The notes beneath the pieces are model-generated. The model had not been told where the DNA came from and searched no databases. It saw only the letters and a list, made by a program, of their open reading frames with translations. A DNA stretch of 64,000 nucleotides from Chloroflexota bacterium (GTDB lineage Bacteria > Chloroflexota > Limnocylindria > Limnocylindrales > CSP1-4): NCBI GenBank assembly GCA_004297395.1, contig SCUO01000093.1, positions 124,001 to 188,000 of the forward strand. Direction: 5' to 3'. Shown in pieces: positions 2,023-28,953 of the stretch. Numbering within the stretch: position 1 is the stretch's first letter; every line of letters starts with the position of its first letter. The translations under genes were made by a program, and so were the position numbers.

Positions 2023-2520
2023 TCAGGCGGTTGCGCCCTCGGTGCTGCCCGGCGTCAAGTCGCCCCAGCGCTGGACCCGGTCGATCGCGATCCGGATGAT
2101 CGGCCGTCCCTCGAGGTCGTGGTCCGCGTACTGCGGGTACTTGGCCCGGAGGGCGGCGAGGGCGGCGACGTGCTCGGCTCGCTCGCGCGGCTCCGGCTCC
2201 AGCAGCACCCCGCGGCCCGTCAGGCGGATCCAGGCGAGGTGCGCCCAATCCTCCGACCAGCGGTCGACGAGGAGCGTCACGGCTGGCAGAACGAGGAGGT
2301 CCTGGACCCGCCCAAGTCGGCGCGGATCGGCCGAGGCCTTGGGCTTCTCGTCGATCGGCGTGTAGATCACCGGCCGGCCCATGTCGTCGGGCTCGTCCGT
2401 CAGGACGAAGCAGACTGGGACGAGGCGGGGCTCGCCGTCGGGGCGGAGGGTGGCGATGACCGCCCGGCGCGTCTCGGCCACGAAGGCGTGCTCCGGGCCG
2501 GTGAGGATGGGTTCGCGCAT
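2023..2520 (-). CDS. PPOX-class, F420-type pyridoxamine 5'-phosphate oxidase-fold protein
   Basis: This 165-residue split-barrel flavoprotein-fold protein resembles the TIGR03668 group of PPOX-class proteins that bind F420 or flavin. Seen in the sequence are the N-terminal VAETRRAVIATLRPDGEPRLVPVCF, a central YTPIDEKPKA, and a WAHLAWIRLTGRG segment followed by an acidic helix ending KYPQYADH. The substrate is unknown; members are often assigned to redox chemistry on small molecules. The start ATG sits 6 nt after a TAGTCT box whose last bases overlap the -10 box of the divergent fdhD gene. Confidence 0.85.
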   Translation of the reverse strand: MREPILTGPEHAFVAETRRAVIATLRPDGEPRLVPVCFVLTDEPDDMGRPVIYTPIDEKPKASADPRRLGRVQDLLVLPAVTLLVDRWSEDWAHLAWIRLTGRGVLLEPEPRERAEHVAALAALRAKYPQYADHDLEGRPIIRIAIDRVQRWGDLTPGSTEGATA

Positions 2521-2526
2521 GGCGCC

Positions 2527-2532
2527 AGACTA
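2527..2532 (-). promoter_or_regulatory. -10 box TAGTCT for the PPOX gene
   Basis: On the minus strand TAGTCT is followed by 6 nt and the ATG at 2520. It shares two base pairs with the plus-strand box at 2531-2536. Confidence 0.55.
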
Positions 2533-2536
2533 CACT
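2531..2536 (+). promoter_or_regulatory. -10 box TACACT for fdhD
   Basis: TACACT is followed by 6 nt and the GTG at 2543, which is in frame with FdhD. This supports GTG at 2543 over the ATG at 2519, which would lie upstream of the promoter and overlap the divergent gene's start. Confidence 0.6.
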
Positions 2537-2542
2537 CGACCC

Positions 2543-3436
2543 GTGACTCGACCCTTGACGCGGCCCGTGACCACGCCGCTCGATCCCGTCCTGCCCGTCC
2601 GCCACGTGACGAGCACCAAGGTGGTGGCCGTTCGGGGGCGGGACCTGGAGCTCCGCGACGACCTGGTCGTCGGCGAGGAGCCGCTCGAGATCCGGGCCGC
2701 CGGGCCGCGCCAGGCGCCGGTCAGCGTGGCGGTCACGATGCGCACGCCGGGCCACGAGAAGGAGCTCGCGATCGGCTTCCTCACGACCGAGGGGCTGCTG
2801 GTGGACAACGAGGTCCTGGGCGTCGATGTCGGTGACCCGGGCTTCATGGCCGAGCCCGATGATGCCGTGCTCGTCCGCCTTGCTCGGAAGTTCGATGTGT
2901 CTCGGGTGGCGGAGCGCCACTTCATCGCCACGGCCTCATGCGGCATCTGCGGCAAGGCCTCGATCGACGAGGTCGCCGTCCGCTGCGAGCCGCTGCCGAA
3001 GGGCCTCCCGGTCGTCGCCCGCGCCGTGATCCTCGCCCTGCCCGACCGGCTGCGCGAGGCCCAGGCCGCCTTCGAGCGGACCGGCGGGCTCCACGCGGCC
3101 GGGCTGTTCGAGACGGACGGACGGCTGGTCGCCGTGCGCGAGGACGTGGGCCGGCACAACGCCCTCGACAAGCTCATCGGCTCCCGTGTCCTGGCCCGCG
3201 AGCTGCCACTCTGGGACCGGATCCTGCTGGTCTCCGGGCGGGTGAGCTTCGAGATCGTCCAGAAGGCGGCGGTCGCCGGCATCCCGATCATCTGCGCGGT
3301 GTCGGCGCCCTCCGACCTCGCCATCCGCCTCGCCGACCGGGTCGGCGTGACGCTCGTCGGCTTCCTGCGGGGCGACGGCTTCAACGTCTACACCCACGAC
3401 GGGCGGATCGATCTTCGCGACCTGATGGCGGGCTGA
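2543..3436 (+). CDS. fdhD: Formate dehydrogenase accessory sulfurtransferase FdhD
   Basis: FdhD moves sulfur from IscS to the molybdenum cofactor and is needed for active formate dehydrogenase. The 297-residue product has the conserved cysteine motif SCGICGKAS around residue 133, the RTPGHEKELAIGFLTTEG block, EDVGRHNALDKLIG near residue 200, and the SGRVSFEIVQKAAVAGIP block. Proteins of this family are cytoplasmic dimers. The GTG start fits a leaderless transcript; an ATG 24 bp upstream would add a repetitive TRPLTRPVT leader. Its presence agrees with the FDH subunits at 6533-9504 and 17425-19347. The downstream YdeI-like gene starts 14 bp after the stop. Confidence 0.95.
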   Translation: MTRPLTRPVTTPLDPVLPVRHVTSTKVVAVRGRDLELRDDLVVGEEPLEIRAAGPRQAPVSVAVTMRTPGHEKELAIGFLTTEGLLVDNEVLGVDVGDPGFMAEPDDAVLVRLARKFDVSRVAERHFIATASCGICGKASIDEVAVRCEPLPKGLPVVARAVILALPDRLREAQAAFERTGGLHAAGLFETDGRLVAVREDVGRHNALDKLIGSRVLARELPLWDRILLVSGRVSFEIVQKAAVAGIPIICAVSAPSDLAIRLADRVGVTLVGFLRGDGFNVYTHDGRIDLRDLMAG

Positions 3437-4044: not shown

Positions 4045-4229
4045 GGCCGTAGCCCGATGACTCGGCGTCACATTCGCGCGCCGATCGCGCGCCCCCGCGG
4101 TTGAGTGGCGGCTGGCCGTAGCCCGATGACTCGGCGTCACGTTCGCGCGCCCATCGCGCGCCCCCGCGGTTGAGTGGCGGCTGGCCGTAGCCCGATGACT
4201 CGGCGTCACGTTCGCGCGCCCATCGCGCG
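4045..4229. repeat. 69-bp direct tandem repeat, 2.7 copies
   Basis: Copy 1 is 4045-4113, copy 2 is 4114-4182 and partial copy 3 is 4183-4229. Copies 1 and 2 differ at only two positions, so the duplication is recent or under selection. Each copy carries one TGAC-N5-GTCA palindrome and CG-rich GCGCGC tracts. There are no spacers, so it is not a CRISPR array, and no convincing gene covers it. Confidence 0.85.
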
Positions 4230-6532: not shown

Positions 6533-7606
6533 TCAGGGCCGCCGTCGCTCGTTCGTGAACTCGAAGCCGAATCGGCCCTTGATGCAGAGGTGGCCGTCGG
6601 TCACGGTGGAATCCATCGGCGAGGTGACCTTCACGATCGTGTTGTCCTGGACGTGGAGATCCAGGACGCAGCCGACGCCGCAGTACGGGCAGATCGTCTC
6701 GGTCACAGACTGGGCGCTCTCATCCCAGGTCCCGTCGGCCCGCATGTCGTGCTCCGACTTGAACATCAGCGCGCCGGTCGGGCAGACGCCGATGCAGTTG
6801 CCGCAATAGACGCAGGCCGAATCGGGGAGGGGCGTGGCCCACTCGGTGGAAATCCGGGCATCGAAGCCGCGGCCGGCGATCGCGATGGCGAAGGTGTTCT
6901 GGGCGTCCTCGCCGCAGGCCTCGACGCACTTGTAGCAGAGGATGCACTTCGAGTAGTCCCGGACGTACAGGTCGTTGTCGACCTTCACCGGCTGCGTGAC
7001 GGTCGATGCCAGGGTGGCCTCCGCACCGCTGGGCGCATGGTGATGGCCGGCAGCGCGGGCATCGCGGGCACCCGCCGGCGACGGCTCGCTCGGCGGCCCG
7101 AAGCGGGACGTATCAGCACCGTAGCGCTCGGCCCAGCGGGCGAGGTCGCCGTCGGGCTGGCGCGGACCGGCGAGCGAGAGGTCAACCGATGAGCCCAGGA
7201 ACTCGAGGACGAGCTTCCGCGAATGGCGGACCCGCTCGGATTCGGTCTGGATCTCCATGCCGGGCTCGACCTTCCGGGAGCAGGCGGGAACGAGGACCCG
7301 CGACCCGCTGACCTCGACGACGCAGACCCGGCAGACGTTCACCGGGGCGAGGTTCTCGAGGTAGCACAGGGTCGGCAGGTCCAAGCCCTGGGCCCGGGCG
7401 GCCTCGAGGATCGTCGACCCGGCCGGGACGGAGACCTCCACCCCGTCGATCGTGACCGTGACGGCCGCCGGCGCCTCAGACGGCGGCGCGAGCGGCGTCC
7501 GGGAGGCACGGGCGGGCGGCGTCGTGAAGATCGCCTCGATGGCCGGCGACATCGGCGGCGCGGGAACGCGGACCGGCGCCTCGCCGGGCCGGTGTTCGGC
7601 GGTCAC
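6533..7606 (-). CDS. FDH electron-transfer subunit: [2Fe-2S], two [4Fe-4S], plus N-terminal Mo-oxidoreductase [4Fe-4S] domain
   Basis: This 357-residue protein is built like the N-terminal half of NuoG or of NAD-linked FDH alpha. A [2Fe-2S] domain at about residues 42-140 has LPTLCYLENLAPVNVCRVC and a later Cys. It is followed by two [4Fe-4S] sites (YSKCILCYKCVEAC and SACVYCGNCIGVCPTG). The last 55 residues are the Fe4S4 domain normally found at the start of a molybdopterin subunit (CPYCGVGC, then HLCIKGRFGFEF) and the chain stops there. The catalytic remainder is encoded separately at 17425-19347. The GTG start at 7606 overlaps the NuoEF stop as GTGA. It should carry electrons between the Mo site and the NADH subunit. 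Confidence 0.88.
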   Translation of the reverse strand: MTAEHRPGEAPVRVPAPPMSPAIEAIFTTPPARASRTPLAPPSEAPAAVTVTIDGVEVSVPAGSTILEAARAQGLDLPTLCYLENLAPVNVCRVCVVEVSGSRVLVPACSRKVEPGMEIQTESERVRHSRKLVLEFLGSSVDLSLAGPRQPDGDLARWAERYGADTSRFGPPSEPSPAGARDARAAGHHHAPSGAEATLASTVTQPVKVDNDLYVRDYSKCILCYKCVEACGEDAQNTFAIAIAGRGFDARISTEWATPLPDSACVYCGNCIGVCPTGALMFKSEHDMRADGTWDESAQSVTETICPYCGVGCVLDLHVQDNTIVKVTSPMDSTVTDGHLCIKGRFGFEFTNERRRP

Positions 7607-9504
7607 AGCCCCACCAGCGCCGGCTGTCGGAACGCCGATTCGATCGCCGAGCTCGCCGTCTGGCCGAGGCCGCAGATACTCGCGTCGCGCATCGCCCGGC
7701 CGATGTCGGCGAGGAGCGCCAGCTCCTCGTCCCGTGTCCGGGCCAACGCGCCATCCGCGAGCCGCGCCAGGAGCTCTTCCTGCCGGACCGTGCCGACCCG
7801 GCACGGGACGCACTGGCCACACGATTCGTCGCGGAAGAAGGCGGCGATCCGCCGCAACGTGCCGACGAGGTCGGCGGTCTCGTCGAAGACCATGACCACG
7901 CCCGAGCCGAGGGTCGCACCGATCGCCCGAGTACCTTCGAAGGTCAGCGGCACGTCGAGCGCGTCCGGGCCGACGAAGACGCCTGCCGCGCCGCCGAGGA
8001 GGATCGCGCGGACCGGGCGACCTCCCGGCACACCGCCACCGAGCTCGAGCAGCTCGCGGAGGGTTGTCCCGAACGGGACTTCGTACACGCCCGGGCGGGC
8101 CACATGGCCGCAGAGGCAGAACAGCTTCGGGCCGGTCGAGCCGTCCGTCCCGGTGGCGGCGTAGCGGGTCCCGCCACCCACGCCGTCACCGTCGCCGAGG
8201 ACGAGGAGGACGTTGACGAGCGTCTCGACGTTGTTGATCGCGGTGGGCTTGCCAAAGAGGCCGACCTCGACCGGGAAGGGCGGCTTGTTGCGCGGCTCGC
8301 CGCGCTTGCCCTCGATGGATTCGAAGAGCGCCGTCTCCTCGCCGCAGATGTAGGCGCCGGCGCCACGCCGGAGCTCGATGTCGAAGGCCCAGCCGGAGCC
8401 GGCGACGTCGTCCCCGAGGAGCCCCGCCGCGCGGGCGACCTCGATGGCAGCGGTCAGGCGCGCCTCGGCGAGCGGGTACTCGCCCCGGAGGTAGAGGTAG
8501 CCGCGGGAGGCGCCGGTGGCGAAGCCCTCGATCGTGATCGCCTCGATGACGGCGAACGGATCGGCCTCCATGAGGACCCGGTCCTTGAACGTGCCGGGCT
8601 CGGATTCGTCGGCGTTGCAGACGACGTAGTGAGGCTGGGCGGTCTGGGCCGCGACGGCGGCCCACTTCCGACCGGTCGGGAAGGCCGCGCCGCCACGGCC
8701 GACGAGCTTCGCGTCGGACACCTCGCGGATCGTCGCCTCGGCGCCCATCGCGATCGCATTCGAAAAGGCTCGGTAGCCGCCGTGGGCCTGGTAGTCGTCG
8801 AGCGAGCCCGGGTCGACGATGCCGATCCGCCCGAGCAGCCGCAGGCCGGGTTGGCCAGCCTGCGGGACCGAAGCCGTGATCGCCGTCGCGGCAGCCGACG
8901 TGGCGCCATGCGGCGCGGTAGAGCCCGCGAGCGCCGCCTCGAGACGACCCACGATCCCGGCCGCATCAACCGGCGCCAGCTCCTCCCGTACGGGCGACTG
9001 CCCGGCGACGGTCAGGAGCGCCGCCGGCGCGAGCTCGCAGCGGCCGAGACACGGGCTCCGGAGCCAGGTCATCGTCCCGTCGCGGGCGGCCGTGCCCGCG
9101 GGACCCAGCGTCCGCTCCAGGTCGCCGCAGATCGCCTCCGCGCCGGCGAGCCGGCACGCGATGTCGTCGCAGACGTGGGCCACGGCCGGCGGCCGCGGGG
9201 TCGTCGTGAAGAGCGCATAGAACGTGGCCACGCCGTAGGCCTCGGCCGGCGGGACGGCGAGGCGCCGGCAGACATAGTTCAGGCCCGGCTGGGTGATCTG
9301 CCCGACCCGGTCCTGGAGTGCGTGCAGGGCTGGCAGCAGGAGGTCGCGCCGGCTCCGGGCCTGGTGGCCGCCGCGGGCCACGTGGCCATCGGTCCGCGAG
9401 TCGCGCTGCCCGCCCGACCAGCCGGATTCGGCCGGGCCCAGCACCGCGTCCACCGCGGCCCGCTCGACCGGGGACGCCAGCGGCCCGATGACGTGGAGGT
9501 CCAT
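7603..9504 (-). CDS. NuoE-NuoF fusion, NAD-dependent formate dehydrogenase beta/gamma subunit
   Basis: This 633-residue fusion joins a NuoE-like thioredoxin-fold [2Fe-2S] domain (about residues 50-200, Cys in CDDIAC and SPCLGRC) to a NuoF-like flavoprotein (about 210-630). The NuoF part shows the NADH/FMN loop LVGRGGAAFPTGRKW, the NADESEPGTFKDR motif, a GAYICGEETAL block and the [4Fe-4S] motif ESCGQCVPCR with its distal SICGLG cysteine. No other complex I genes are present, so it most likely passes electrons from formate to NAD+. It starts at ATG 9504 after a TACACT box and its stop overlaps the next gene as GTGA. Confidence 0.93.
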   Translation of the reverse strand: MDLHVIGPLASPVERAAVDAVLGPAESGWSGGQRDSRTDGHVARGGHQARSRRDLLLPALHALQDRVGQITQPGLNYVCRRLAVPPAEAYGVATFYALFTTTPRPPAVAHVCDDIACRLAGAEAICGDLERTLGPAGTAARDGTMTWLRSPCLGRCELAPAALLTVAGQSPVREELAPVDAAGIVGRLEAALAGSTAPHGATSAAATAITASVPQAGQPGLRLLGRIGIVDPGSLDDYQAHGGYRAFSNAIAMGAEATIREVSDAKLVGRGGAAFPTGRKWAAVAAQTAQPHYVVCNADESEPGTFKDRVLMEADPFAVIEAITIEGFATGASRGYLYLRGEYPLAEARLTAAIEVARAAGLLGDDVAGSGWAFDIELRRGAGAYICGEETALFESIEGKRGEPRNKPPFPVEVGLFGKPTAINNVETLVNVLLVLGDGDGVGGGTRYAATGTDGSTGPKLFCLCGHVARPGVYEVPFGTTLRELLELGGGVPGGRPVRAILLGGAAGVFVGPDALDVPLTFEGTRAIGATLGSGVVMVFDETADLVGTLRRIAAFFRDESCGQCVPCRVGTVRQEELLARLADGALARTRDEELALLADIGRAMRDASICGLGQTASSAIESAFRQPALVGL

Positions 9505-9649: not shown

Positions 9650-12600
9650 TCAGGCGGCTCTCGGGCTCGTCGGCGGGTGCGGGTGCTGCATCCGTGCGTA
9701 CACAAGGGCGCTCACCAGGAGGAGCACGCCGAGGGCCACGAGCGACAGGACCCGGTAGGCGACGTCGAGGGCAGCCAGGTCCACCAGGAAGACCTTGATC
9801 GTCGCCAGCCCCAGGAGACCCAGGCCGGACAGCCGGACCTCCGGCCGGTGGAGTCGGAGGCCGCCGGCGAAGCCGACGAGTCCGAGGGCCGACCACAGCA
9901 CGCTGAGGCCAACCTGGGCCTCCTTCTGGAGCTCCTCGAGCGGCCGCGACCCGACCTGCCGCTGGAAGGTGTCCACGAGTCCGACCGACAGGAGGTACAG
10001 ACCGATGATCCCGGCCCCCAGGAACGCCCAGCGGCGAAGGGGCTCGCCGCGGAGCAGGATTGCCGCGACGACGAGTCCGATCGCCATCGCCCCGAGGGCG
10101 ACGGTGGCGTCGGTGAGGATGGGCAGGCCCTGGACGAAGGTCGATGGATCCACCACCAGCCGGCTCGGCGGGGCCACCACGGCGATGCTCGCGAGGGCGC
10201 CGCAGGCCGCCAGGACGAGGCTCGGGATGCCGGCGACCGTACGTCCGGCCGGGGCGAGGCTGATGAGCCCGGCACCGCCGAGGGCGAGCGCCGACCAGCC
10301 GGCCACGGCGTACCCGAGGCGGACCTCGAACGGCAGCAGCCAGGCGACGATGAGCGCGGCAAGGACGGCGCCGGTGAGCCGAGCGATCGTCCCGCCCCAC
10401 GTCCAACCTGCGGCGAGGGCGGTCGCCGCGACGATGGCCAGGGCGTACGACCGGACGTCAATGAAGGGCGTCCCGACCACCGCCACCTGGAGGTCGCCGG
10501 TCACATGCCGCACGAACGGCACCACGCCGGCATACCAGAAACCCTGGACGCCGAGGAAGAAGGCGGCCAGGAGGGCCGCCCCGTGCGGGGCCCGCTCGCC
10601 GGCGATCGCCAGGAGCGACGAGCCCGGGGCCGGAAGCAGGTCGATCCGGGCGATGCGTCGCACGACCGCGAGGGCCACCAGAACCAGCCCGCCCCAGGCC
10701 AGCATGACGTGCGGCCGATCGACCTCGAAGGTCACGCTGTAGGCAAGCAGGGCGATGCCGATGCCGGCCGCGCCGAGGCGCGCCCAGGTGGCACCGCCGA
10801 TCCAGCCGCTGGCGGCGAGCGCCGCCAGGACCGCGAGAAGCGCTGCGCCCTCGGGCCCGGCGTAGGGCACCGCGAAGGCACCTTGGCTGCCCAGGGCATC
10901 GATCGGGAAGTCGTGGAGCACCAGGTGGCCGATCGTGGCGATCAGGGCGAGCCCTCCGAGCCACGAGAGGGACGGCCTGGCAACCCGGCTGAGCCCTCGG
11001 ATGGCCAGCTCGACCGGCGGCTGGATGGCGGTCGGGAGGGCCAGGACAGCGAGCCGATTCTCGACGAAGGCCGGCGGGATCCGCATGGACACGACCCGGA
11101 CGTAGGTGGCGAGCGCGGCGACCGCGAGGACGGCCCAGGCGGCCACGAGCGCCGGGCCCGACAGCTCGAACGGGAAGACATACAGGGTCAGCGCGCCGGC
11201 CACGACGGTGAGCGAGGCTCGAACCCAGGCGATCGGGACGCCCAATCCGGCGACGACGAGGGCGCCGAGCAGGAACGCGAAGGTCATGCCCTCGGGGCCG
11301 AGGAACGGCCACGACCGGTCGAACCCCGACAGGATCGCGCCGGGTGGGTACTCGATGGCCACGAGGTGGCCGATGGCCAGGGCGCCGAGCGCGATCGCGA
11401 CGGCGCCGCTATAGGGATGGCGGCGCAGCGAGGCCACCCACGCCAGGGCGACGGCCTCGGCGGCCCAGGCGATCGGGACGGGTGGCCCACCGAACTGGAC
11501 CGGCACCGCCATCGAGAGGGCGGCCACCCCGGTCGCCGCCACGATCAGGCCGAACGGGTGGCGGTCGCCGTTGCGGGCGAAGAAGAACAGGCCCAGTGCT
11601 AGGTGGGCGACGGCCAGGGCGGCCAGGAACGAGCCGCGCCAAACCGCATCGGGGTCGCTCAGGACCGTGAAGCCGGCCCAGACCGTAAACGCCGCCGTGG
11701 CGAGCAGGAGCGTGACGGTGGTCGTCCGGAGCCGATCGGTCGCGTGGCGGGTCTCCTCGCCGCCCGCCGCCACGACATTGACGAGCCAGAAGGCCGCGAT
11801 GGCGGCTAGGGCCTGACCGATCGGGGCGTCGCCGGCCAGGTACGAGGCAAGCTGCGGCGCGGCCAGGGCGAACGCCAGCGGCGGCAGCCAGACCCATGTC
11901 CGGAAGAGCGCGACGCCCGTCGTCCCGACGAGGGTGACCGCGACGAACAGGAGGGTGATCAGGGTCGGAGAGGCCCCCAGGGCCGGTGGCGCGGCGAGGA
12001 CGGCGACGAGTCCGAAGCCGGCGACGAGCTGGGAGTCGTGCCGGATGGCGATGGCCGCCGCGGCGACGGCCGCGATGAACGCGCCGGCAAGCCCCCACTC
12101 GACCGGGACGAGGCCGTACAGGCGCGTGGCGGCGAGCAGGGCGAGGGACACGATGGCCAGGCCGACGGCGACGAGGACGTGGCCGAGGATGCCGCGGAGC
12201 TTCGTGAAGGCGAGCTCGCCGAGCACGAGGAGCCCCAGGCCGGCCCCGAGCCCGATGAGGACGCGCATCGGCTCGGTGATCCAGCCGCGGCTGAAGGCGA
12301 GGCTCAGGAAGAAGACGGCGCCGAGGAGCAGGGCGATCCCGCCGACGACGGCGAGCAGGCGTCCCTCGAGCCAGGCCTCGATGGCCCCGCGCGACAGGAC
12401 CTCGCCCTCCGCGGGCGGCGTCAGGCCGAGCTTCAGGAGGGCTCGGTGGAGAAGGCCGGGACCGGCCGGTTCGACCTCGACCAGCTCGCGGGCGAGCGGC
12501 GCCTCCTCGGCGGCCTCCATGCGATCGATTGGGAGGGTCGTGGTCCGCCTCGCGCGTGGCGCGACGGCGACAGGCTGCTCTGCCCGCGCTGCGATGGCCG

Positions 12601-12847
12601 GGGACGCCTCGGCCCGAGCGGGAGCCGCGGCTCGCTCCGCTCGGCGCCCTTCGCTGACCTTGACGACCAGCGGCAGGGACGATCGGCCTGATTTGAGGTC
12701 CTCCACCGCATCGAGGAGGTCGTCGACCTGCAGCTCGAGCAGGTGCGCGTTTTCTACCGCCTCGTCCAGGCGCCGCGTCAGGTCGCCCGTCCGTGACCAC
12801 AGCGTCGCGAAGACCACGACCAGGATGAGCAGCAGCAGGAGCTCCAT
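9650..12847 (-). CDS. DUF2339 family polytopic membrane protein
   Basis: This 1065-residue protein starts with a transmembrane anchor (MELLLLLILVVVF). A short coiled coil follows (residues 20-55, a heptad-rich DEAVENAHLLELQVDDLLDAVEDL), then an Ala/Arg-rich linker to about residue 150. The remainder is more than 20 hydrophobic segments, starting near WLEGRLLAVVGGIALLLGAVFFL. That architecture and the conserved WxExRLLxxVGGIALLLG motif are those of DUF2339, a predicted membrane family of unknown function. The ATG at 12847 follows a Shine-Dalgarno GGGAGGG; a longer start would add only six residues. It ends in a short Pro/His tail. Confidence 0.88.
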   Translation of the reverse strand: MELLLLLILVVVFATLWSRTGDLTRRLDEAVENAHLLELQVDDLLDAVEDLKSGRSSLPLVVKVSEGRRAERAAAPARAEASPAIAARAEQPVAVAPRARRTTTLPIDRMEAAEEAPLARELVEVEPAGPGLLHRALLKLGLTPPAEGEVLSRGAIEAWLEGRLLAVVGGIALLLGAVFFLSLAFSRGWITEPMRVLIGLGAGLGLLVLGELAFTKLRGILGHVLVAVGLAIVSLALLAATRLYGLVPVEWGLAGAFIAAVAAAAIAIRHDSQLVAGFGLVAVLAAPPALGASPTLITLLFVAVTLVGTTGVALFRTWVWLPPLAFALAAPQLASYLAGDAPIGQALAAIAAFWLVNVVAAGGEETRHATDRLRTTTVTLLLATAAFTVWAGFTVLSDPDAVWRGSFLAALAVAHLALGLFFFARNGDRHPFGLIVAATGVAALSMAVPVQFGGPPVPIAWAAEAVALAWVASLRRHPYSGAVAIALGALAIGHLVAIEYPPGAILSGFDRSWPFLGPEGMTFAFLLGALVVAGLGVPIAWVRASLTVVAGALTLYVFPFELSGPALVAAWAVLAVAALATYVRVVSMRIPPAFVENRLAVLALPTAIQPPVELAIRGLSRVARPSLSWLGGLALIATIGHLVLHDFPIDALGSQGAFAVPYAGPEGAALLAVLAALAASGWIGGATWARLGAAGIGIALLAYSVTFEVDRPHVMLAWGGLVLVALAVVRRIARIDLLPAPGSSLLAIAGERAPHGAALLAAFFLGVQGFWYAGVVPFVRHVTGDLQVAVVGTPFIDVRSYALAIVAATALAAGWTWGGTIARLTGAVLAALIVAWLLPFEVRLGYAVAGWSALALGGAGLISLAPAGRTVAGIPSLVLAACGALASIAVVAPPSRLVVDPSTFVQGLPILTDATVALGAMAIGLVVAAILLRGEPLRRWAFLGAGIIGLYLLSVGLVDTFQRQVGSRPLEELQKEAQVGLSVLWSALGLVGFAGGLRLHRPEVRLSGLGLLGLATIKVFLVDLAALDVAYRVLSLVALGVLLLVSALVYARMQHPHPPTSPRAA

Positions 12848-12986
12848 CTCCGTCCCTCCCAGCACCGGGATCGCACCCAGCCACTGATGGGACGCGGGGC
12901 GCCTGGATTCGTCACGTTGCCAGGCGATCCGACCGCCGGCATCGCCGGGCCGCCCTGTACGGATGCGGATGGAACCCGCCGTGAAT

Positions 12987-13019
12987 CGAATGGCCCCCGG
13001 TCGAACCGGGGGCCATTCG
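12987..13019 (-). terminator. Strong hairpin terminator after the cold-shock gene
   Basis: A 15-bp perfect stem (12987-13001 with 13005-13019) closes a CGA loop about 20 bp past the stop of the cold-shock gene. The symmetric hairpin could terminate transcription from either side, but its position fits the minus-strand gene. Confidence 0.75.
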
Positions 13020-13039
13020 TGCGGTGGCAGGGGGAGCGA

Positions 13040-13252
13040 TTACGCTCCTTCGGCCTCGCGAACATTCGCCGCCCGCGGGCCCTTCGGCCCGGACTGGACG
13101 TCGAAGCTCACCGCCTCGCCGCCGTTGAGGCGGTCGAAGCTGAGCGGTGCCTGGAGCGAGTCGCGGTGGAAGAAGTAATCCTTCCCGTCCTCGCCGGTGA
13201 TGAAGCCGAAGCCGCGATCGGCGACGACCTTCTTGACAGTGCCGGTGGTCAC
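13040..13252 (-). CDS. Cold-shock domain protein
   Basis: This 70-residue single cold-shock domain binds single-stranded RNA or DNA. RNP1 is GFGFITG near residue 15 and RNP2 is the variant DYFFHRDSL near residue 25, where E. coli CspA has VFVHFS. The start is taken as GTG at 13252 because AAAGGGG lies 7 nt upstream and the protein then begins with the usual (M)TTGTVK. A GTG five codons earlier would overlap the leader hairpin. The long leader upstream is probably regulatory. Confidence 0.9.
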   Translation of the reverse strand: MTTGTVKKVVADRGFGFITGEDGKDYFFHRDSLQAPLSFDRLNGGEAVSFDVQSGPKGPRAANVREAEGA

Positions 13253-13266
13253 AGTGACCCCTTTCA

Positions 13267-13307
13267 CTTCTCGAACGGATTAGCAGGCGCACGGCCTGTT
13301 CGAGAAG
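13267..13307 (-). promoter_or_regulatory. Leader hairpin of the cold-shock mRNA
   Basis: Perfect 10-bp arms (CTTCTCGAAC at 13267-13276 and its complement at 13298-13307) with a 21-nt loop end directly before the Shine-Dalgarno sequence and 14 nt before the GTG. The hairpin sits in a leader of about 95 nt. This resembles cspA-type leaders whose folding controls translation. Confidence 0.55.
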
Positions 13308-13354
13308 CAGGTCGACCGACGCGAAGCACCGTCGCACAGCACGACGACTCCGAC

Positions 13355-13360
13355 AGAGTA
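13355..13360 (-). promoter_or_regulatory. -10 box TACTCT for the cold-shock gene
   Basis: On the minus strand TACTCT lies about 102 nt before the GTG at 13252. A start 6-7 nt downstream gives a leader of about 95 nt containing the hairpin. Assignment rests on the TANNNT pattern alone. Confidence 0.35.
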
Positions 13361-13431
13361 CCCGCGATTCGCGATCGGTGGGCCCGCCTTCCTCGCCGTG
13401 GCGCGTTTCCAGGGGCGGATCGGCGCGCGAT

Positions 13432-13752
13432 TCAGGCCCCGGGCGGTCGGTACGTGACGCCGACGCCGCGGGCCTCGTCCACATCCGCCGCCGTGAGGAG
13501 CACGGTCGTCGTCACGCCGCCGACCCCGCTCGCCGACACCCTGGTCGCGGCCGCCGCGGCCGCAGCGTTCCCGGGCAGCTCGGCGATCATGATGAAGTCG
13601 TCATCGCCGAACGCCCAGTACGCCGCCTCGACTTGTCCGCCGACGCTCGCCACGAGGTCGTTGATGGCCTTGAGTCGGCTCGCCGCGCCCTCCTTGAGGA
13701 CGCCCTGGATCCCCTGCTGGCTATAGCGGGCGCGGAACAGGTAGTGCGCCAT
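13432..13752 (-). CDS. GYD domain protein
   Basis: This 106-residue protein is a GYD-domain (dimeric alpha/beta-barrel-like) protein. Seen are the N-terminal YLFRARYSQQGIQGVLKEGAASR, the central GGQVEAAYWAFGDDDFIMIAELPG and a C-terminal strand TTVLLTAADVDEA. Function is not established for the family; several members sit near oxidoreductases. The ATG at 13752 follows GGAGG at normal spacing. The open frame extends upstream without support. Confidence 0.85.
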   Translation of the reverse strand: MAHYLFRARYSQQGIQGVLKEGAASRLKAINDLVASVGGQVEAAYWAFGDDDFIMIAELPGNAAAAAAATRVSASGVGGVTTTVLLTAADVDEARGVGVTYRPPGA

Positions 13753-13832
13753 GTCGATCCTCCTCGGACGCGCGGGCGAGGCCATCCCGTCCGATCGCGA
13801 GGCGACATCGTGCGTCGGCCTCTCCCCCAGCG

Positions 13833-14906
13833 TCAACGGCCCAGGAGGACGTCTCCCAGGAGGCGCTGTCCGACGAACAGGACGAGGGGCAGCAGGATCG
13901 CGGTGACGAAGCCGCGCAGGGTGCCGGCCGACCATGGCCACGTTGGGAGCTTCGCCAGGATCTCGCGCTCCTGGAGGACGCTGCCGAGGGTCTTCTGGAG
14001 CCCGTCCGCGCGCCGGAGATCCAGCGCGTCGACGTCCTCGTGGACGGCCGCGAGCACGGCCTTGAGGCGCTCCTCGGCCGCGCCCTGGAGGCCGGCCTTG
14101 GCGGCCACGAGGCGTCGATGCATGCCGAGCAGCGGCACGACGAAGATCGCAACCGCCACGGCCGGAACGCCGACCACCCAGGGAGCCCAAAGCAGGGCTG
14201 CGCTCTCGCTGCCGACGGCAACCGGGTTCAGCGCGAGTCCGAAGGCAATCATGAGGACGAGCGCCATCCCCGTCTGCGACGTGAGCCGGGAGAACGCATG
14301 GAGCGGCTCCGGGTTGAACGGGTCGATCCGGTCCGCGAGGGCGTGGAGCCGGCTGACGAGCCGTAGCTGGCGGACGCCATGGACGATGATGGTCAGGGCA
14401 ATCGCGGAGAAGAGCGACTCGAAGACGGTCCTCCCGACCAGCGCCGCGGGGCTCAGCCCGGCCACCTTCGAGCCGACCGGGTCCGAGACGTAGAACGCGA
14501 TGGTGAGCGGGAACGACACGACGAGCAGGACAATCGACGTCCGGCGCGACGCCGTCGTCAGCTCATAGCGGACCCGAACCTCGTCGATGCGTCCTGGAGT
14601 CAACGCGACGCGGAAGGTGTCGAAGGCCTCGCCGGCGACACGGTTCACGTGGTCGACCGCGACCAGGAAGGCGATGGTCAGGACGCCCCATGCCGTCTGT
14701 GTAGCGGTGAGCGATCCAAACCGCGCGCCCGACAGCCAGTCCTGGGAATTGGAAACAATGATGGAGGCGACCATCAGGACGGCGTATGTCAGCCAGGCCG
14801 GCCATGACCGAGAGTGGATCCAGGCAAACAGGTTGTCGAGCCAGCCCGGCGAATACGGAGGCGAAGTCTGGCTCGCTACGCCGGCCGCGCGTGCATCAGT
14901 AGCCAA
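13833..14906 (-). CDS. Membrane protein of unknown family, paralogue of 16305-17384
   Basis: This 357-residue protein has an N-terminal PYSPGWLDNLF motif, about six membrane segments (around residues 35, 70, 125, 170, 230 and 265) and a cytoplasmic coiled-coil-like stretch (residues 280-330, EERLKAVLAAVHEDVDALDL). It ends in LPTWPWSAGTLRGFVTAILLPL followed by a last helix. No known domain is recognised. The start is TTG at 14906, preceded by GGGGAGGGG. The same architecture and end motif occur in the protein at 16305-17384, so the two are paralogues flanking a flavoprotein gene. Confidence 0.75.
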   Translation of the reverse strand: MATDARAAGVASQTSPPYSPGWLDNLFAWIHSRSWPAWLTYAVLMVASIIVSNSQDWLSGARFGSLTATQTAWGVLTIAFLVAVDHVNRVAGEAFDTFRVALTPGRIDEVRVRYELTTASRRTSIVLLVVSFPLTIAFYVSDPVGSKVAGLSPAALVGRTVFESLFSAIALTIIVHGVRQLRLVSRLHALADRIDPFNPEPLHAFSRLTSQTGMALVLMIAFGLALNPVAVGSESAALLWAPWVVGVPAVAVAIFVVPLLGMHRRLVAAKAGLQGAAEERLKAVLAAVHEDVDALDLRRADGLQKTLGSVLQEREILAKLPTWPWSAGTLRGFVTAILLPLVLFVGQRLLGDVLLGR

Positions 14907-14979
14907 AGTAAGCTCCCCTCCCCGTGGACGCCGCGAAATCGTACCGGTGGGTGCAAGTTCCCCGGCCGTGTCGTCGCCC

Positions 14980-16251
14980 TCAGGCCCGGGCTGCCTCGAG
15001 GCGATCGGCCACGATCGCGGCGTCCCGCCCGACTCCGAAGAGGGTCGCGGAGGCCATGTCGCGCATCCACGGCAGTCCGACGAAGGCGAGGCCGGGAATC
15101 TCGGTCAGGCCGTCGACCTGGCGCGGGACGCCGTTCGGCTCGAAGATCGGCAGGTCGATCCAGCCGTAGTCCAGGCGGAAGCCGCTCGTCCAGAGGATCG
15201 TCGAGATGCCCTCGGCGGCAAGGTCCAGCTCGGTCACCTCCGGGACGTCACGAATGAGCGCCGGCGGCCGATCGTCCGGCCCGGCCTCCGCACCGGACCG
15301 CTCGATGTACGTGTCGAAGATTGGCTTGAGTCGCGCGTCGAAGAAGCGATCGGCGAAGTCGAGGTTGGCGTTCAGATCGGCCGCCAGCCGGATCCGCTCC
15401 CCGTCGGCGGCCTCGAAGCGGCCGACGAGGGTCATGCCCTCCGCCGCGAACTGTCGGAGGTTGGTGTCGTGGCCGCCGCGGTGGCCTGACAGGTGCGGGT
15501 TGCAGGCGAAGCGCAGCCGCGGATCGGGCAGCGTCTCGACCGTCGGCAGGCTCGTGCCGTACTGGTGGCCGCGAACCTTGACGCCGGCCAGCCAGTGGAA
15601 GGTGTCACGACCGCGGTAGCGCCGCGGTGCCCGGCCACAGCGGCCGACGGACAGGAACACCCGGCGGCCGGCCCGGTGGAGCTCCTCGGCCAGCTGCACG
15701 CCGGTCTGTCCGGTGCCGACGAGGAGGACCGCACCTGGCGGCAGCGCGGCCTCGCTCCGGTACTCGTGGGCGTGGACCTGCCACACACGCTCGCTCAGGC
15801 CCGCGGCCGCAGGGGAGATCCTCGGGACCTGGAAGCCGCCCGTCGCCACGATCACCCGGTCGGCAAGCACGTGGCCGCGCGAGGTCGTCAGGCGGAAGCG
15901 GCGTCCGCCGTCCCGATGCGCCTCCAGCCGCTCGACGCGGGTGTCGAGGGCGACTGGGGCATCGATGACATCGGCGTAGCGGGCCACCCGCTCGATGATC
16001 TCGTCCCGGGGCATGAAGCCGTCGGCATCGTCGCCGTCGTAGGTGTAGCCGGGAAACGAGGCCGTCCAGTTGGGGCTGACCAGGCGGAACTCGTCCCAGC
16101 GGTCCTGCCAGCCGCCGCCGAGGGTGCTCCGCCGCTCGACGACGAGGTGCTCCCGTCCCGCCGTCCGAAGGAGCGAGCTCATCGACAGGCCGGCGTGGCC
16201 GGCGCCGACGACGACGGTCTCCACGCTCTCGGGCAGGACGCTCACCCTCAC
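14980..16251 (-). CDS. Flavin-dependent monooxygenase-like NAD(P)/FAD oxidoreductase
   Basis: The 423-residue product has an FAD-binding Rossmann motif (VVVGAGHAGLSMS, residues 13-25), the WDEFRLVSPNW substrate-side motif, a central ATGGFQVP motif and a second nucleotide motif (LLVGTGQTGVQLAEEL) for NAD(P)H. It ends with PGLAFVGLPWMRDMASATLFGVG. The pattern fits flavin-containing or N-hydroxylating monooxygenases acting on small molecules. The substrate is unknown. It starts at GTG 16251, 6 nt after a TAGGCT box, and is transcribed apart from the flanking paralogous membrane proteins. Confidence 0.88.
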   Translation of the reverse strand: MRVSVLPESVETVVVGAGHAGLSMSSLLRTAGREHLVVERRSTLGGGWQDRWDEFRLVSPNWTASFPGYTYDGDDADGFMPRDEIIERVARYADVIDAPVALDTRVERLEAHRDGGRRFRLTTSRGHVLADRVIVATGGFQVPRISPAAAGLSERVWQVHAHEYRSEAALPPGAVLLVGTGQTGVQLAEELHRAGRRVFLSVGRCGRAPRRYRGRDTFHWLAGVKVRGHQYGTSLPTVETLPDPRLRFACNPHLSGHRGGHDTNLRQFAAEGMTLVGRFEAADGERIRLAADLNANLDFADRFFDARLKPIFDTYIERSGAEAGPDDRPPALIRDVPEVTELDLAAEGISTILWTSGFRLDYGWIDLPIFEPNGVPRQVDGLTEIPGLAFVGLPWMRDMASATLFGVGRDAAIVADRLEAARA

Positions 16252-16257
16252 GTCCGG

Positions 16258-16263
16258 AGCCTA
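16258..16263 (-). promoter_or_regulatory. -10 box TAGGCT for the flavoprotein gene
   Basis: Minus-strand TAGGCT, 6 nt, then GTG at 16251: leaderless spacing. Confidence 0.55.
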
Positions 16264-16304
16264 CCCGACGACCCCAGGCATGGGGCAGCCCGATCGCCGA
16301 GGTT

Positions 16305-17384
16305 TCACAGGATTCGGGCCAGCGAAAGCTGGACGACGAACAGGAAGATCGGCAGGAGGATCGCGGTGATGATCGCGCGGAGGGTGCCGGTCGACCACGG
16401 CCACGTCGGGAGCCTGGCGATGACCTCGCGCTGCTGGAGCATCGAGGCCAGCGTCTTGTTGAGGTCGTCGGCCCGCTGCAGGTCGCGGGCGTCGACGTCC
16501 CGGTTCAGCTCCGTGAGCAGGCCCTTGAGGCGGACCTCGACCTCGGCCTGCAGGCGGTCCTTCTCGACCTCGAGGCGGCCGTGCAAGCCATAGAGAGGCA
16601 CGACGAAGGCGAGCGTCGCGATGATCGGCGAAATGACGAGGTAGGGCGCCGAGGTCACGAGGAACTTCGCGAGGTCCGGTGACTGCGGTGTGATGACGAT
16701 GCCCGACGTCACGATCACCACGAGGGCGATTCCGGCGCGGGCGGTCAGCCGCGAGAAGGCACTCAGCGGTCCGGGGAGGAACGGATCGATGATCGCCGAG
16801 CGATCGAGCGTCACCCGGATGAGGCGCATCTGGCGGACGAGCCGGGTCAGGAGGACGAGCAGGATCGCGACGTTCACGAACTGGCCGACGAACGCGGCGA
16901 CCACGAGCGGGGCGGCCAGCCCGACGAGGTTGGAGCCGACGGGATCGACGACGAACTGCAGGATCGTCAGGACGGCCGACCCGACGAGGGCGGCGGCGGA
17001 CCAGGAGGCGGGATCGACGGTGAGCTCGTAGCGGAGCCGCGCCACTTCCGCATCCGCCAACGACAGCGCCGGTCGTGACGCCTCGAGCGACGAGCCGGCG
17101 ACGCGGTCGAGGTGCGCCGCGACCCAGAGCATCATCGTCAGGATCACGCCCCAGTACACGTTCGTCGTATCCAGGGTGCCGAACGCCGACCGCCCGAGCG
17201 TCCATGGCTGGAGATGGAACAGCAGGCTCTGGATCACGCCGAGTGCGATGTAGGCGACCCAGGCGGGCCCCGGCAGCGCGTCCAACCGGCGGAGGAGCCA
17301 GTGGAGCCAGCCCGGTGGGTACGGGCGGCGCTCGATGTCGTCGACCGCCCCGACCGCCACCTTCCCCACCGTGTCCGTCGTCAC
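16305..17384 (-). CDS. Membrane protein of unknown family, paralogue of 13833-14906
   Basis: This 359-residue protein shares with its neighbour the N-terminal PYPPGWLHWLL, the RVAG and LRYELT motifs, DPVGSNLVGL, PLSAFSRLTARAGIALV, the coiled-coil-like EVRLKGLLTELNRDVDARDLQ and the end motif LPTWPWSTGTLRAIITAILLP. Six or seven hydrophobic segments are visible. The function is unknown. The GTG at 17384 is preferred because GGGAGG lies just upstream, although an ATG at 17411 would lengthen the N-terminus. It begins 40 bp after the FDH catalytic gene on the same strand, so it may be cotranscribed with it. Confidence 0.75.
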   Translation of the reverse strand: MTTDTVGKVAVGAVDDIERRPYPPGWLHWLLRRLDALPGPAWVAYIALGVIQSLLFHLQPWTLGRSAFGTLDTTNVYWGVILTMMLWVAAHLDRVAGSSLEASRPALSLADAEVARLRYELTVDPASWSAAALVGSAVLTILQFVVDPVGSNLVGLAAPLVVAAFVGQFVNVAILLVLLTRLVRQMRLIRVTLDRSAIIDPFLPGPLSAFSRLTARAGIALVVIVTSGIVITPQSPDLAKFLVTSAPYLVISPIIATLAFVVPLYGLHGRLEVEKDRLQAEVEVRLKGLLTELNRDVDARDLQRADDLNKTLASMLQQREVIARLPTWPWSTGTLRAIITAILLPIFLFVVQLSLARIL

Positions 17385-17424
17385 CGCTGCCTCCCGCTGT
17401 GCGGCCCTCATGCTAGTCGGGCGC

Positions 17425-19347
17425 TCAGGCGGGGATCGGCGCCCCAAGCTTCTCGATCCGGATGGCGGTGGCCTTGAACTCCGCCGTGCCCGACTTTGGA
17501 TCGATGGCGTCGATCGTGAGGAGGTTCACGGCGACGTCGTCCTGGAAGTGGAAGGTCATGAACGTCAGGCCGGGCCGGAGGCTCGGGTCGATCCGGATCG
17601 GCACCTCGACCTGGCCGCGGCGCGACACGATGCGGACCCGCTCGCCCTCGGCCCAGCCATACGTGGCCGCGTCCTCGGGCGAGACGTCGAGGGTCTCGCC
17701 GCGGCGCAGCGGCGACCGGAACGAGCCGGTCTGGACGCCGGTGTTGTAGCTGTCGAGGCGGCGGCCCGTCGTGAGGCGGATCGGGAAGTCGTCGTCCAGG
17801 CGATCCACGGGCGGGTCGTGGTCGACCGGCACGAACGGGATGCGACTCCCCGGGACCGGGTCCTCCCACAGCCGCGAATGGAGGAACAGCTCGCCGGGAT
17901 GGGTCTCGTCCCAGCACGGCCACTGGATCCCGCCGAGCTCCTCGAGCCGGGCGTAGGTCATGCCGCGGTGGACCGGCGAGAGGCTCCGGAGCTCGTCCCA
18001 GACGCGCTCGGCCGAGGCCTCGCCCCAGTCGTGGCCCATCCGCCGGGCGAGCTCGAAGATGATCCACAGGTCGTCTCGTGCCTCGCCCGGCGGGTCGAGG
18101 GCCTTGCGAACCCGCTGGACGCGCCGCTCGGAGTTGGTGACCGTGCCCTCGGATTCGGCCCACGCAGCGGCGGCCGGCAGGACGACGTCGGCAAGCTCCG
18201 CGGTGGCGGTCAGGAAGAGGTCCTGGACCACCATGAAGTCGAGGCTGCCGAGGAGGTGCTTCGCCCGCTTCTGGTCGGCCTCCGACTGGACGGGGTTCTC
18301 GCCGATGACATAGGCCGCACGGAGCTCGCCGCGCTCGATGGCGTCGAACATGGCCGACAGGTGCCAGCCCTTCTTCGGCGGCACCTTCACGCCCCAGGCG
18401 GCATCGAATGGCGCCCGGAGCTCGTCCCGCTCGACGAACTGGAAGCCCGGCAGCCGGTCGGGCAGGGCGCCCATGTCGCCGCCGCCCTGGACGTTGTTCT
18501 GGCCACGCAGCGGGTTGAGGCCGCTGCCGTACCTCCCGACATGACCGGTCAGCGTGGCGAGGTTGATGAGGGCGAGGACGTTGTCGACCGCGTTGTGGTG
18601 CTCGGTGATGCCGAGGGTCCAGCAGATCATCGCCTTGTCGGCCGTGGCGTAGGCGTGGGCGAGCTCGCGGATGGCGGCGGCCGGGACACCCGTCTCACGC
18701 TCGGCGTACTCGAGGGTGTACGTCTCGACCTTCGACCGGTAGGCATCGAAGTCGAAGGTCGCCCGCGTGATGAACTCGGCGTTGTGGAGGCCAGCGTGAA
18801 TGATCTCCCGGCCGACGGCGTTGGCCAGGGCGATGTCGCTGCCGACGTCGAGGCCCAACCACGCGTCGGCCCACTCGGCTGACGAGGTCCGCCGGGGGTC
18901 GACCGCGTACAGCCGCGCGCCGTTGCGGACGCCGCGCAGGAGGTGGTGGAAGAAGATCGGGTGCGTCTCCCGGGCGTTGCTGCCCCAGAGGACGACCAGG
19001 TCCGTCTCCTCGACCTCACGATATGAGCTGGTTCCGCCACCAGCGCCGAACACGGTCGCCAGACCGGCGACAGATGGGGCGTGTCAGGTGCGGTTGCAGC
19101 TGTCGATGTTGTTGCTGCCCAGGACCGTCCTCGAGAGCTTCTGGGCCGCGAAATTGACCTCGTTGGTCGCCTTCGAGCAGCTGAAGATCCCGAACGGCGC
19201 CGGCGCGTCGGCGCGGCGATGCGCCTCGGCGGCCCGGAAGCCTGCGACGGTCCGATCGAGCGCCTCATCCCAGGTCGCGGGACGGAGCTCGGCGCCCTTC
19301 GTGTCGCGGACGAGGGGCTGGGTCAGGCGAACGTACGACTTCGGCAA
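17425..19347 (-). CDS. fdhA: Selenocysteine-containing formate dehydrogenase catalytic (molybdopterin) subunit
   Basis: This gene oxidises formate to CO2 at a Mo or W bis-pterin site. It must be read through TGA at 19084-19086 as selenocysteine (residue 88 of 640): upstream codons end NNIDSCNRT and the reading resumes HAPSVAGLATVFGAGGG, which is the known FDH active-site context with Sec then His. The C-terminal part shows WGSNARETHPIFFHH, the long GRYGSGLNPLRGQNNVQGGG cofactor motif and a molybdopterin dinucleotide domain (RLTTGRRLDSYNTG). The N-terminal CxxCxxxC cluster domain is missing and is encoded at 6533-7606. No ATG or GTG lies before RLTQPLVR; the start is probably TTG at 19347 with GGAGG 11 nt upstream, downstream of a TACACT box. 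Confidence 0.9.
19055..19071 (-). promoter_or_regulatory. SECIS-like hairpin in fdhA
   Basis: On the minus strand GTCGCC, loop GGTCT, GGCGAC form a perfect 6-bp stem. The loop begins 18 nt after the TGA, exactly as in E. coli fdhF as I recall it, and the GGUCU loop is the same. It is therefore the likely SelB binding site directing Sec insertion. Confidence 0.8.
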
Positions 19348-26145: not shown

Positions 26146-27225
26146 TCAGACGAGGGCGACTGACCCCGCGCCGTCGGGACTCGTCTCGACCCGCCCGACC
26201 CGCCAGTGCGACACGCCGCGGGCGTCGAGGCCGGCCTCGAGCTGGGCAACCTCGGTCGGCGCCACCGCGGCGAGGAGGCCGCCCGAGGTCTGCGGGTCGT
26301 GGGCCAGGACGACGAGCGCCTCCGGGACGTCGTCGCGGACGGTCAGGGCCGGCGCCACGAAGCGGCGATTGTGGCCCGCGCCGCCGGTCTCGACGCCGGC
26401 CCGGGCCAGATCGAGGGCCCCGGCCATGGCCGGCAGGTCCGCCGCCTCGAAGGCGAACCGGACGCCCGCGGCGTGGGCCATCTCGAGACCATGGCCCAGG
26501 AGGCCGAAGCCGGTGACATCGGTGGCCGCGGCCACGCCGGCCTGGGTCAGGGCCTCCGAGGCGTCGCGGTTGAGTCGCCGCATCGAATCGACAGCGGCAG
26601 CCAGGTCGGCGTCCGAGGTCCGGCCCTGGCGCCGGCCGCTGACGAGGAGGCCCGTGCCCAGCGCCTTCGTCAGGACGAGGACGTCGCCGGGCCGGGCGCC
26701 GCCCTTGCGCAGGAGCCGGTCGGGGTGGGCGACGCCCACAACCGCGAGGCCGTACTTCGGCTCGGGATCGCGGATGGTGTGGCCGCCGGCGAGGATCCCG
26801 CCGGCCTCGCGGACTACGCTCGCGGCCCCGTCGAGGATCGCCCGGAACGCGTCCCGCGGCAGGTCCTCGGGCATCGCCGCGACCGACAGCGCGAACAGCA
26901 CCCTGCCGCCCATCGCGAAGACATCCGACAGGGCGTTGGCTGCGGCGATCTCGCCGTACGTCCGCGGGTCATCGACGATCGGCGGGAAGAAGTCGACCGT
27001 CCCGATGACCGCGAGATCCGGGGCGACGAGGTGGACCGCGGCGTCGTCGGGCGGCTCGAGGCCGGCGATGAGTCCTTCGGGCGACGCCACGCCCTCGATC
27101 ACGCCGAGCCCGGCGAGGACCTCGCCCAATGCGTCCGCCCCGAGCTTCGCCGCACAACCGCCGCACTCGGTCAGCTCGGTCAGGCGGATGGGACGCGTGC
27201 TCTCCACGGTCGGGAAGTTGGCCAT
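26146..27225 (-). CDS. selD: Selenide, water dikinase (selenophosphate synthase)
   Basis: SelD makes selenophosphate from selenide and ATP and feeds SelA. The 359-residue protein has the N-terminal catalytic loop ECGGCAAKLG (residues 20-29, Cys rather than Sec), the metal-binding Asp residues in EPPDDAAV and IGTVDFFPPIVDDP, the ALSDVFAMGG motif, ILAGGHTIRDPEPKYG and the C-terminal ATDVTGFGLLGHGLEMA and LAHDPQTSGGLL motifs. It is monocistronic on the minus strand, with a TATGAT box 6 nt before the ATG. It completes the Sec pathway with tRNA-Sec, selA and selB 2-6 kb away. Confidence 0.96.
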   Translation of the reverse strand: MANFPTVESTRPIRLTELTECGGCAAKLGADALGEVLAGLGVIEGVASPEGLIAGLEPPDDAAVHLVAPDLAVIGTVDFFPPIVDDPRTYGEIAAANALSDVFAMGGRVLFALSVAAMPEDLPRDAFRAILDGAASVVREAGGILAGGHTIRDPEPKYGLAVVGVAHPDRLLRKGGARPGDVLVLTKALGTGLLVSGRRQGRTSDADLAAAVDSMRRLNRDASEALTQAGVAAATDVTGFGLLGHGLEMAHAAGVRFAFEAADLPAMAGALDLARAGVETGGAGHNRRFVAPALTVRDDVPEALVVLAHDPQTSGGLLAAVAPTEVAQLEAGLDARGVSHWRVGRVETSPDGAGSVALV

Positions 27226-28856: not shown

Positions 28857-28953
28857 GGGAGTGGGTTCGGGCCGGTGCCCGGCCCGGTCTTCAAAACCGG
28901 TGGCGCGGCGCCCGGCGTCGCGCGGTGGGTTCGACTCCCATGCGCTCCCGCCA
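28857..28953 (+). tRNA. selC: tRNA-Sec (anticodon UCA), CCA encoded
   Basis: The 97-nt sequence folds as a bacterial tRNA-Sec. GGGAGTG pairs with CGCTCCC in a long acceptor stem. The D arm CGGGC-CGGT-GCCCG has a 4-nt loop as in E. coli SelC. The anticodon stem CCGGT/ACCGG carries loop CTTCAAA with UCA at 28891-28893. A long variable arm (about 28901-28924) and T arm GTGGG-TTCGACT-CCCAT follow, then discriminator G and CCA. It reads the TGA in fdhA. The eighth acceptor pair is a G-G mismatch by this fold. Confidence 0.95.

Follow-up and report, generated by a model that had tools for sequence, protein, structure and literature searches.

The question raised by this locus is how a formate dehydrogenase (FDH) could be built when the iron-sulfur (Fe-S) domain that normally opens its catalytic chain is encoded by another gene. 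The stretch analyzed here, which we call the window, comprises 64,000 nucleotides from a Chloroflexota bacterium (assembly GCA_004297395.1, contig SCUO01000093.1, positions 124,001 to 188,000), the source genome of which is a draft metagenome-assembled genome (MAG) of 3.08 Mb in 143 contigs that is 85% complete. Three genes on its minus strand are concerned: an FDH catalytic core, namely FdhA without its N-terminal Fe-S part (17425..19347); a NuoE-NuoF fusion, nuoEF (7603..9504); and an Fe-S "wire" subunit, hereafter the Fe-S half (6533..7606). These genes very probably specify one heterotrimeric, NAD-reducing, selenocysteine (Sec)-dependent FDH to which the [4Fe-4S] cluster proximal to the metal is supplied in trans, with a single permutation of the operon as its origin.

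Regarding the partition of one protein between two genes, positions 1-53 of the NCBIfam model TIGR01591 (Fdh-alpha, 672 positions) match the Fe-S half and positions 53-672 match the core, and in FdsA of Rhodobacter capsulatus residues 15-305 and 308-936 match the two products, respectively. The Fe-S half, a protein of 357 amino acids with a GTG start, carries the Molybdop_Fe4S4 domain (PF04879) at residues 300-352 (65 bits), only five residues before the stop; the domain corresponds to 6551..6709 on the minus strand (CPYCGVGC...HLCIKGRFGF; E 5.5e-19 in the whole-genome search). The core, of 640 codons with a TTG start 11 nt after GGAGG, holds the bis-molybdopterin guanine dinucleotide (MGD) and C-terminal MGD-binding domains (PF00384, PF01568), and a domain search found no PF04879 on this chain. 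PF04879 and PF00384 have one match each in the source genome, both in the split-FDH genes. A preliminary description of the window had proposed that the 6533-7606 protein closes with the domain that normally opens an FDH alpha chain, that the 17425-19347 protein starts at the next expected segment, and that neither holds the other's part, all of which these matches bear out. A complete fdhA elsewhere, which that description had named as counter-evidence, was not found in this 85%-complete genome.

The split is not peculiar to one assembly. Among 107 genomes of the taxonomic family, core and Fe-S half occurred together in 51, neither in 49 and one alone in 7, mostly in fragmented assemblies. 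Family cores (75-93% identity) start at the same residue, and in all 39 pairs on the same contig the core lies upstream and the Fe-S half downstream on one strand with 1.9 to 12.4 kb between them, the shortest gaps being just filled by nuoEF. Wider searches within the phylum turned up cores with 62-75% identity in several other families, with no Fe-S domain upstream and the order core-nuoEF-Fe-S half. When species genomes were scanned with the core alignment, at least 590 relatives were obtained, the best 80 of which formed our locus set; these came from at least eight phyla (Chloroflexota, Acidobacteriota, Actinomycetota, Planctomycetota, Dormibacterota, Eremiobacterota, Gemmatimonadota and Rokubacteria), as labeled by the depositors in the case of MAGs, and the Planctomycetota members include the isolate Aquisphaera insulae JC669. 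In 67 of the 67 resolvable loci, the Fe-S half was downstream on the same strand, most often 1.8-2.0 kb from the core and with nuoEF between, and the core-nuoEF spacing was less than 100 nt in most loci. The remaining 13 of the 80 were without an Fe-S half, nearly all because the contig or fetched stretch ended first, and none of the best 80 loci had an Fe-S half fused to the core or upstream of it. The check in related genomes that the preliminary description had suggested thus found the same split throughout, and its claim that the cluster nearest the Mo and the active site belong to different polypeptides is supported by sequence in the source genome and in all resolvable related loci.

The same comparison bears on whether the split is an artifact of assembly, binning or sequencing, or a decayed gene, as may be suspected of a draft MAG in 143 contigs. 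This gene order recurs in dozens of independent assemblies, including that of the JC669 isolate, which discounts the assembly break that had been considered earlier, and the cores are at least 63% identical with ligands intact. Assembly artifact was therefore rejected on the cross-genome comparison of gene order, and we regard this explanation as a whole as having almost no chance of being correct. As separate observations, one locus (L114, G020:C6:20000-39739) carries, besides the split Sec-FDH operon, a separate fused Sec-FDH at a distance of a few kb on the other strand, with 46% identity and its own nuoEF, and two others (L140 and L146, in G005 and G004) have a second NuoF-like gene between nuoEF and the Fe-S half.

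The cut falls at a single conserved point, between the motifs GRFG and RLT, as would be expected of halves that are united post-transcriptionally or post-translationally, through a split intein, for instance, or trans-splicing of RNA. However, in 63 of 65 loci the Fe-S half stops 6-29 residues past GRFG and shows no conserved extension, and the start codon of the core lies no more than nine residues from RLT in all 68 loci measured, which leaves no space for intein halves. Ordinary stops and starts are also present in both genes. Joining of the halves is, accordingly, very improbable. In one related genome (G097), an in-frame TAG stands one codon ahead of the context of the core start codon.

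The preliminary description was right in reading 17425-19347 as the FDH catalytic gene, but it missed that the product is a selenoprotein. The core reading frame is open only when the TGA at 19084..19086 (minus strand) is read through, at residue 88 in the context SCNRT-U-HAPSV, which is the position of the Mo-ligand Sec or Cys of FDHs; TGA was found there in 80 of the 80 readable loci. Fifteen nucleotides from the first base of the UGA is a hairpin resembling a bacterial Sec insertion sequence (SECIS), GTCGCC-GGTCT-GGCGAC (19055..19071, minus strand). Among 80 sequences, each of its six pairs is preserved 79 or 80 times, and at two pairs both partners have changed. The loop is GGTCT in 78 of 80 sequences, and its glycine codon is GGT in 78 of 80, whereas in the rest of these genes only about 9% of glycines are encoded by GGT; GGUCU likewise forms the core of the SECIS loop in E. 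coli fdhF. The window further contains the Sec machinery: selD for selenophosphate synthase (26146..27225, minus strand; TIGR00476, 341 bits), a tRNA-Sec with anticodon TCA (28857..28953, plus strand; found by ARAGORN, Rfam RF01852 69.5 bits), selA for Sec synthase (29438..31009, plus strand, given as the longest open reading frame; TIGR00474, 436 bits) and selB for the Sec-specific elongation factor (31017..32933, plus strand; TIGR00475, 301 bits), the three protein scores all being above cut-off. Judged from the UGA at the catalytic position, the SECIS hairpin and this machinery, the catalytic core is a UGA-decoded selenoprotein.

Another MopB-family oxidoreductase composed of the same parts might be suspected instead of an FDH, since the role is predicted from sequence and the TIGR01591 score of the core, 639 bits, does not reach the full-length cut-off of 666. 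The absence of the first 53 positions from this chain accounts for the difference, and the next family, NasC, reaches only 392 bits. Moreover, Sec88, His89 and Arg281 at the active site are invariant in an alignment of 17 cores; we take Arg281 to be the active-site arginine by its position, in comparison with FdhH. The gene for the FDH accessory sulfurtransferase, fdhD, is nearby (2381..3436, plus strand; TIGR00129, 167 bits, above cut-off; this is the longest open reading frame and the true start is probably further in). Such a non-FDH enzyme is thus very unlikely. An AlphaFold model of the core, of moderate confidence (predicted local distance difference test, pLDDT, 71), confirmed the FDH fold and nothing further.

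The other two genes supply what the core is without. The Fe-S half has an FdsA/NuoG-type 2Fe-2S domain (Fer2_4, PF13510), two 4Fe-4S motifs (PF12838/PF00037) and the terminal Mo-proximal domain described above, whose cluster ligands Cys306, Cys309, Cys313 and Cys341 are invariant in an alignment of 17 Fe-S halves together with Lys343. This lysine (CIKG), after the last ligand, corresponds by position to the one that lies between cluster and pterin in FdhH. The stop codon of nuoEF overlaps the GTG start of the Fe-S half (GTGA), and the nuoEF product combines PF01257, PF01512, PF10531 (SLBB) and PF10589 in one chain, as a diaphorase subunit with a 2Fe-2S cluster, an FMN/NADH site and a 4Fe-4S cluster. 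With the NuoG-like 2Fe-2S and 4Fe-4S domains, this NuoE/NuoF diaphorase makes the FdsABG-type set complete by genes, although the chains are differently divided. In R. capsulatus FDH, electrons pass through A1, A2, A3, A5 and B6 to FMN, and A4 is off this path, at the dimer interface (PMC7171172). Alignment and domain search indicated that the ligands for A1, A2, A3 and A5 are kept on the Fe-S half and those for B6 on NuoEF. The direct path is therefore complete, but a subunit boundary would have to be crossed at its first step, from metal and pterin to A1. The motif of the His-ligated A4 cluster (HxxxCxxCx5C) was found in 0 of 68 Fe-S halves, with SSVDLS aligned where the A4 ligands of FdsA stand, and the quaternary structure is probably different, as A4 is the dimer-interface cluster.

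These observations also allow us to weigh a reading in which NuoEF and the Fe-S half serve another enzyme as an NAD(P)H-linked module of their own, with the core working either without a proximal cluster, in the manner of dimethyl sulfoxide (DMSO) and trimethylamine N-oxide (TMAO) reductases, or with another carrier. Some enzymes of the DMSO reductase family are without the N-terminal cluster (PMC10100899), an Fe-S protein resembling a non-catalytic part of FDH stands beside a fused NADPH-oxidoreductase set with no FDH core in Pelobacter carbinolicus (PMC3543383), and the two parts lie about 10 kb apart in the source genome. On the other hand, the co-occurrence of core and Fe-S half is almost perfect, most lineages have both in one compact operon, and the invariant proximal-cluster ligands and cluster-to-pterin lysine would be useless without a molybdopterin partner, for which no other protein of the superfamily was found in the 85%-complete source genome. 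The core also does not resemble the MopB type that has no proximal-cluster domain at all (DorA, TorA), as the domain and all its ligands are kept on the partner gene. We consider a separate module improbable, although less so than the other explanations above.

Taken together, the complementarity of the parts, their co-occurrence, the gene order and the conserved ligands strongly suggest a heterotrimer. It would consist of a catalytic core that has bis-MGD and Sec and is devoid of Fe-S clusters, a wire chain with all the clusters of a normal FdsA, including the Mo-proximal [4Fe-4S], except the off-path A4, and the NuoE-NuoF diaphorase. Electrons from formate would pass from Mo(W)-Sec to the proximal [4Fe-4S] on the other chain, through the two [4Fe-4S] clusters to [2Fe-2S], and then through the NuoF [4Fe-4S] and FMN to NAD+. 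This path, the direction of catalysis and the choice of NAD, the last suggested by the NuoF domain, are what the gene content would lead us to expect.

Several points weigh against this reading. The complex, its activity and its expression are inferred from the genes, and the AlphaFold models (pLDDT of 54 for the Fe-S half, from 17 sequences, and 71 for the core) are too weak for a study of the interface. Pairwise distances of core and Fe-S half are correlated (r 0.395, against a maximum of 0.185 in 1000 permutations), but the correlation is moderate and would be expected for any co-inherited operon. In addition, other genes, about 7.9 kb in all, break up the operon of the source genome, and the stoichiometry of the chains would consequently need separate regulation.

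Regarding this interruption, the preliminary description had noted that the halves are about 10 kb apart with unrelated genes on the same strand between them, which is accurate here but does not hold in general. The separation in the source genome is a later local insertion, and the operon is compact as a rule. In this lineage, the stretch between core and nuoEF (9650..17447, minus strand, by family matches) encodes a DUF2339 membrane protein (9650-12865), two unnamed proteins (13833-14906 and 16305-17447) and an MSMEG_0569-family flavin oxidoreductase (14980-16251), the last belonging to a family of unknown function. Most relatives with a large gap are without these genes, and two genomes have homologues of 16305-17447 and 13833-14906; insertion therefore probably happened more than once.

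The origin of the split was approached with a maximum-likelihood tree of 42 split cores, taken from the best 80 of at least 590, 19 fused cores and two divergent rows; of 12 additional comparison regions, one (L239) was a placeholder stretch and was left out. All split cores fell on one side of one branch (support 99/99), which shows, at the level of the sequences compared, a single origin of the clade. One long-branched row (L235, G014:C34) is a divergent MopB protein, nitrate-reductase- or FDH-like, with an Fe4S4-like domain without the last cysteine (GRLGPKGMYG). In most fused relatives from this phylum, an intact gene for the N-terminal part and core (N-core) comes after nuoF; in one, the diaphorase comes after the N-core gene. 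As the relatives compared carry the proximal-cluster domain in cis, the fused state was taken as ancestral. The operon then looks cyclically permuted, from nuoEF-N-core to core-nuoEF-N, with fdhA cut at a domain boundary, the linker between the Fe-S and molybdopterin domains. The simplest route to this order would take two steps, a tandem duplication and then complementary loss.

Why the split was kept may be related to UGA decoding, which in E. coli fdhF is achieved by only 30-40% of ribosomes (PMC4513850). On failure, a fused enzyme would waste an Fe-S polypeptide still able to bind the diaphorase, while the split form would give an 87-residue fragment; the idea that a separate wire spares the cell from building Fe-S domains into truncated chains is speculative. 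All split cores seen have Sec, but fused Sec enzymes exist too, and inefficient decoding may thus be at most a partial reason. The broader picture, of a large, old soil and groundwater lineage of NAD-linked Sec FDHs with a trans-supplied cluster, which derives from one cyclic permutation that cut the catalytic gene and was kept because truncated cores would carry no Fe-S clusters and not block the diaphorase, is offered only tentatively, and we think it may well be wrong in part.

The source genome encodes a heme-copper oxidase, and no match to the carbon monoxide dehydrogenase (CODH)/hybrid-cluster family was found in its 85%-complete sequence, a gene content more in keeping with a respiratory use of formate oxidation than with acetogenesis. 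A Sec-dependent FDH in a genome with a cytochrome oxidase and without CODH-type proteins is an unusual combination, and Sec FDHs have been described as oxygen sensitive (PMC7171172). Elsewhere in the window, a tandem array (69-bp unit, 2.7 copies, 98% match) lies at 4045-4229, between fdhD and the next genes.

In all the structurally solved FDHs of this family that we compared, the catalytic chain itself carries the cluster adjoining the metal; in the split enzyme, the first electron-transfer step out of the active site would have to cross a subunit boundary. The literature searched contained no account of an FDH whose proximal cluster is encoded apart from the catalytic gene, which is weak evidence given the low coverage of subscription papers, and the passages seen of a 2026 review of prokaryotic selenoproteins do not mention one. 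Split FDHs may be missed because survey filters want near full-length matches or the N-terminal cluster motif (e.g., PMC10100899), and because automatic gene calling is disrupted at the UGA. As the scan described above indicates, this is a widespread lineage. A catalytic core without clusters, which could be made and loaded alone, may be useful in engineering and in testing how formate/CO2 chemistry is tuned by the proximal cluster.

Among known systems, the cytoplasmic NAD-dependent FDH of R. capsulatus (FdsABGD; PDB 6TG9) and its Cupriavidus necator counterpart have the same domain total, namely NuoG-like Fe-S, proximal [4Fe-4S], molybdopterin core and NuoE-/NuoF-like diaphorase. FdsA is, however, one chain in both, whereas the split system is cut at FdsA 305/308 with the gene order permuted, is without A4 ligands and has Sec where these enzymes have Cys. 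FDH1 of Methylorubrum extorquens (MeFDH1) resembles it in the fusion of NuoE- and NuoF-like parts in one beta subunit, but has a continuous alpha chain and tungsten with Cys. E. coli FdhH (FdhF) and the FdhF of the hydrogen-dependent CO2 reductase (HDCR) are closest to the core in fold and sequence, and FdhH also uses Sec; unlike the split core, both have the proximal [4Fe-4S] domain within the catalytic chain. The catalytic chain of the reductases DorA and TorA is also without an Fe-S cluster, but the cluster was lost there and is kept on a partner chain here. A molybdopterin catalytic subunit is likewise divided between genes in formylmethanofuran dehydrogenase (FwdB/FwdD) and in the FDH-like enzyme of Methanothermobacter with its separate C-terminal subunit (PMC7171172). 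In those cases, the C-terminal MGD-binding domain is the separate part and the cluster stays on the catalytic chain, whereas in the present system it is the N-terminal cluster domain that stands apart.
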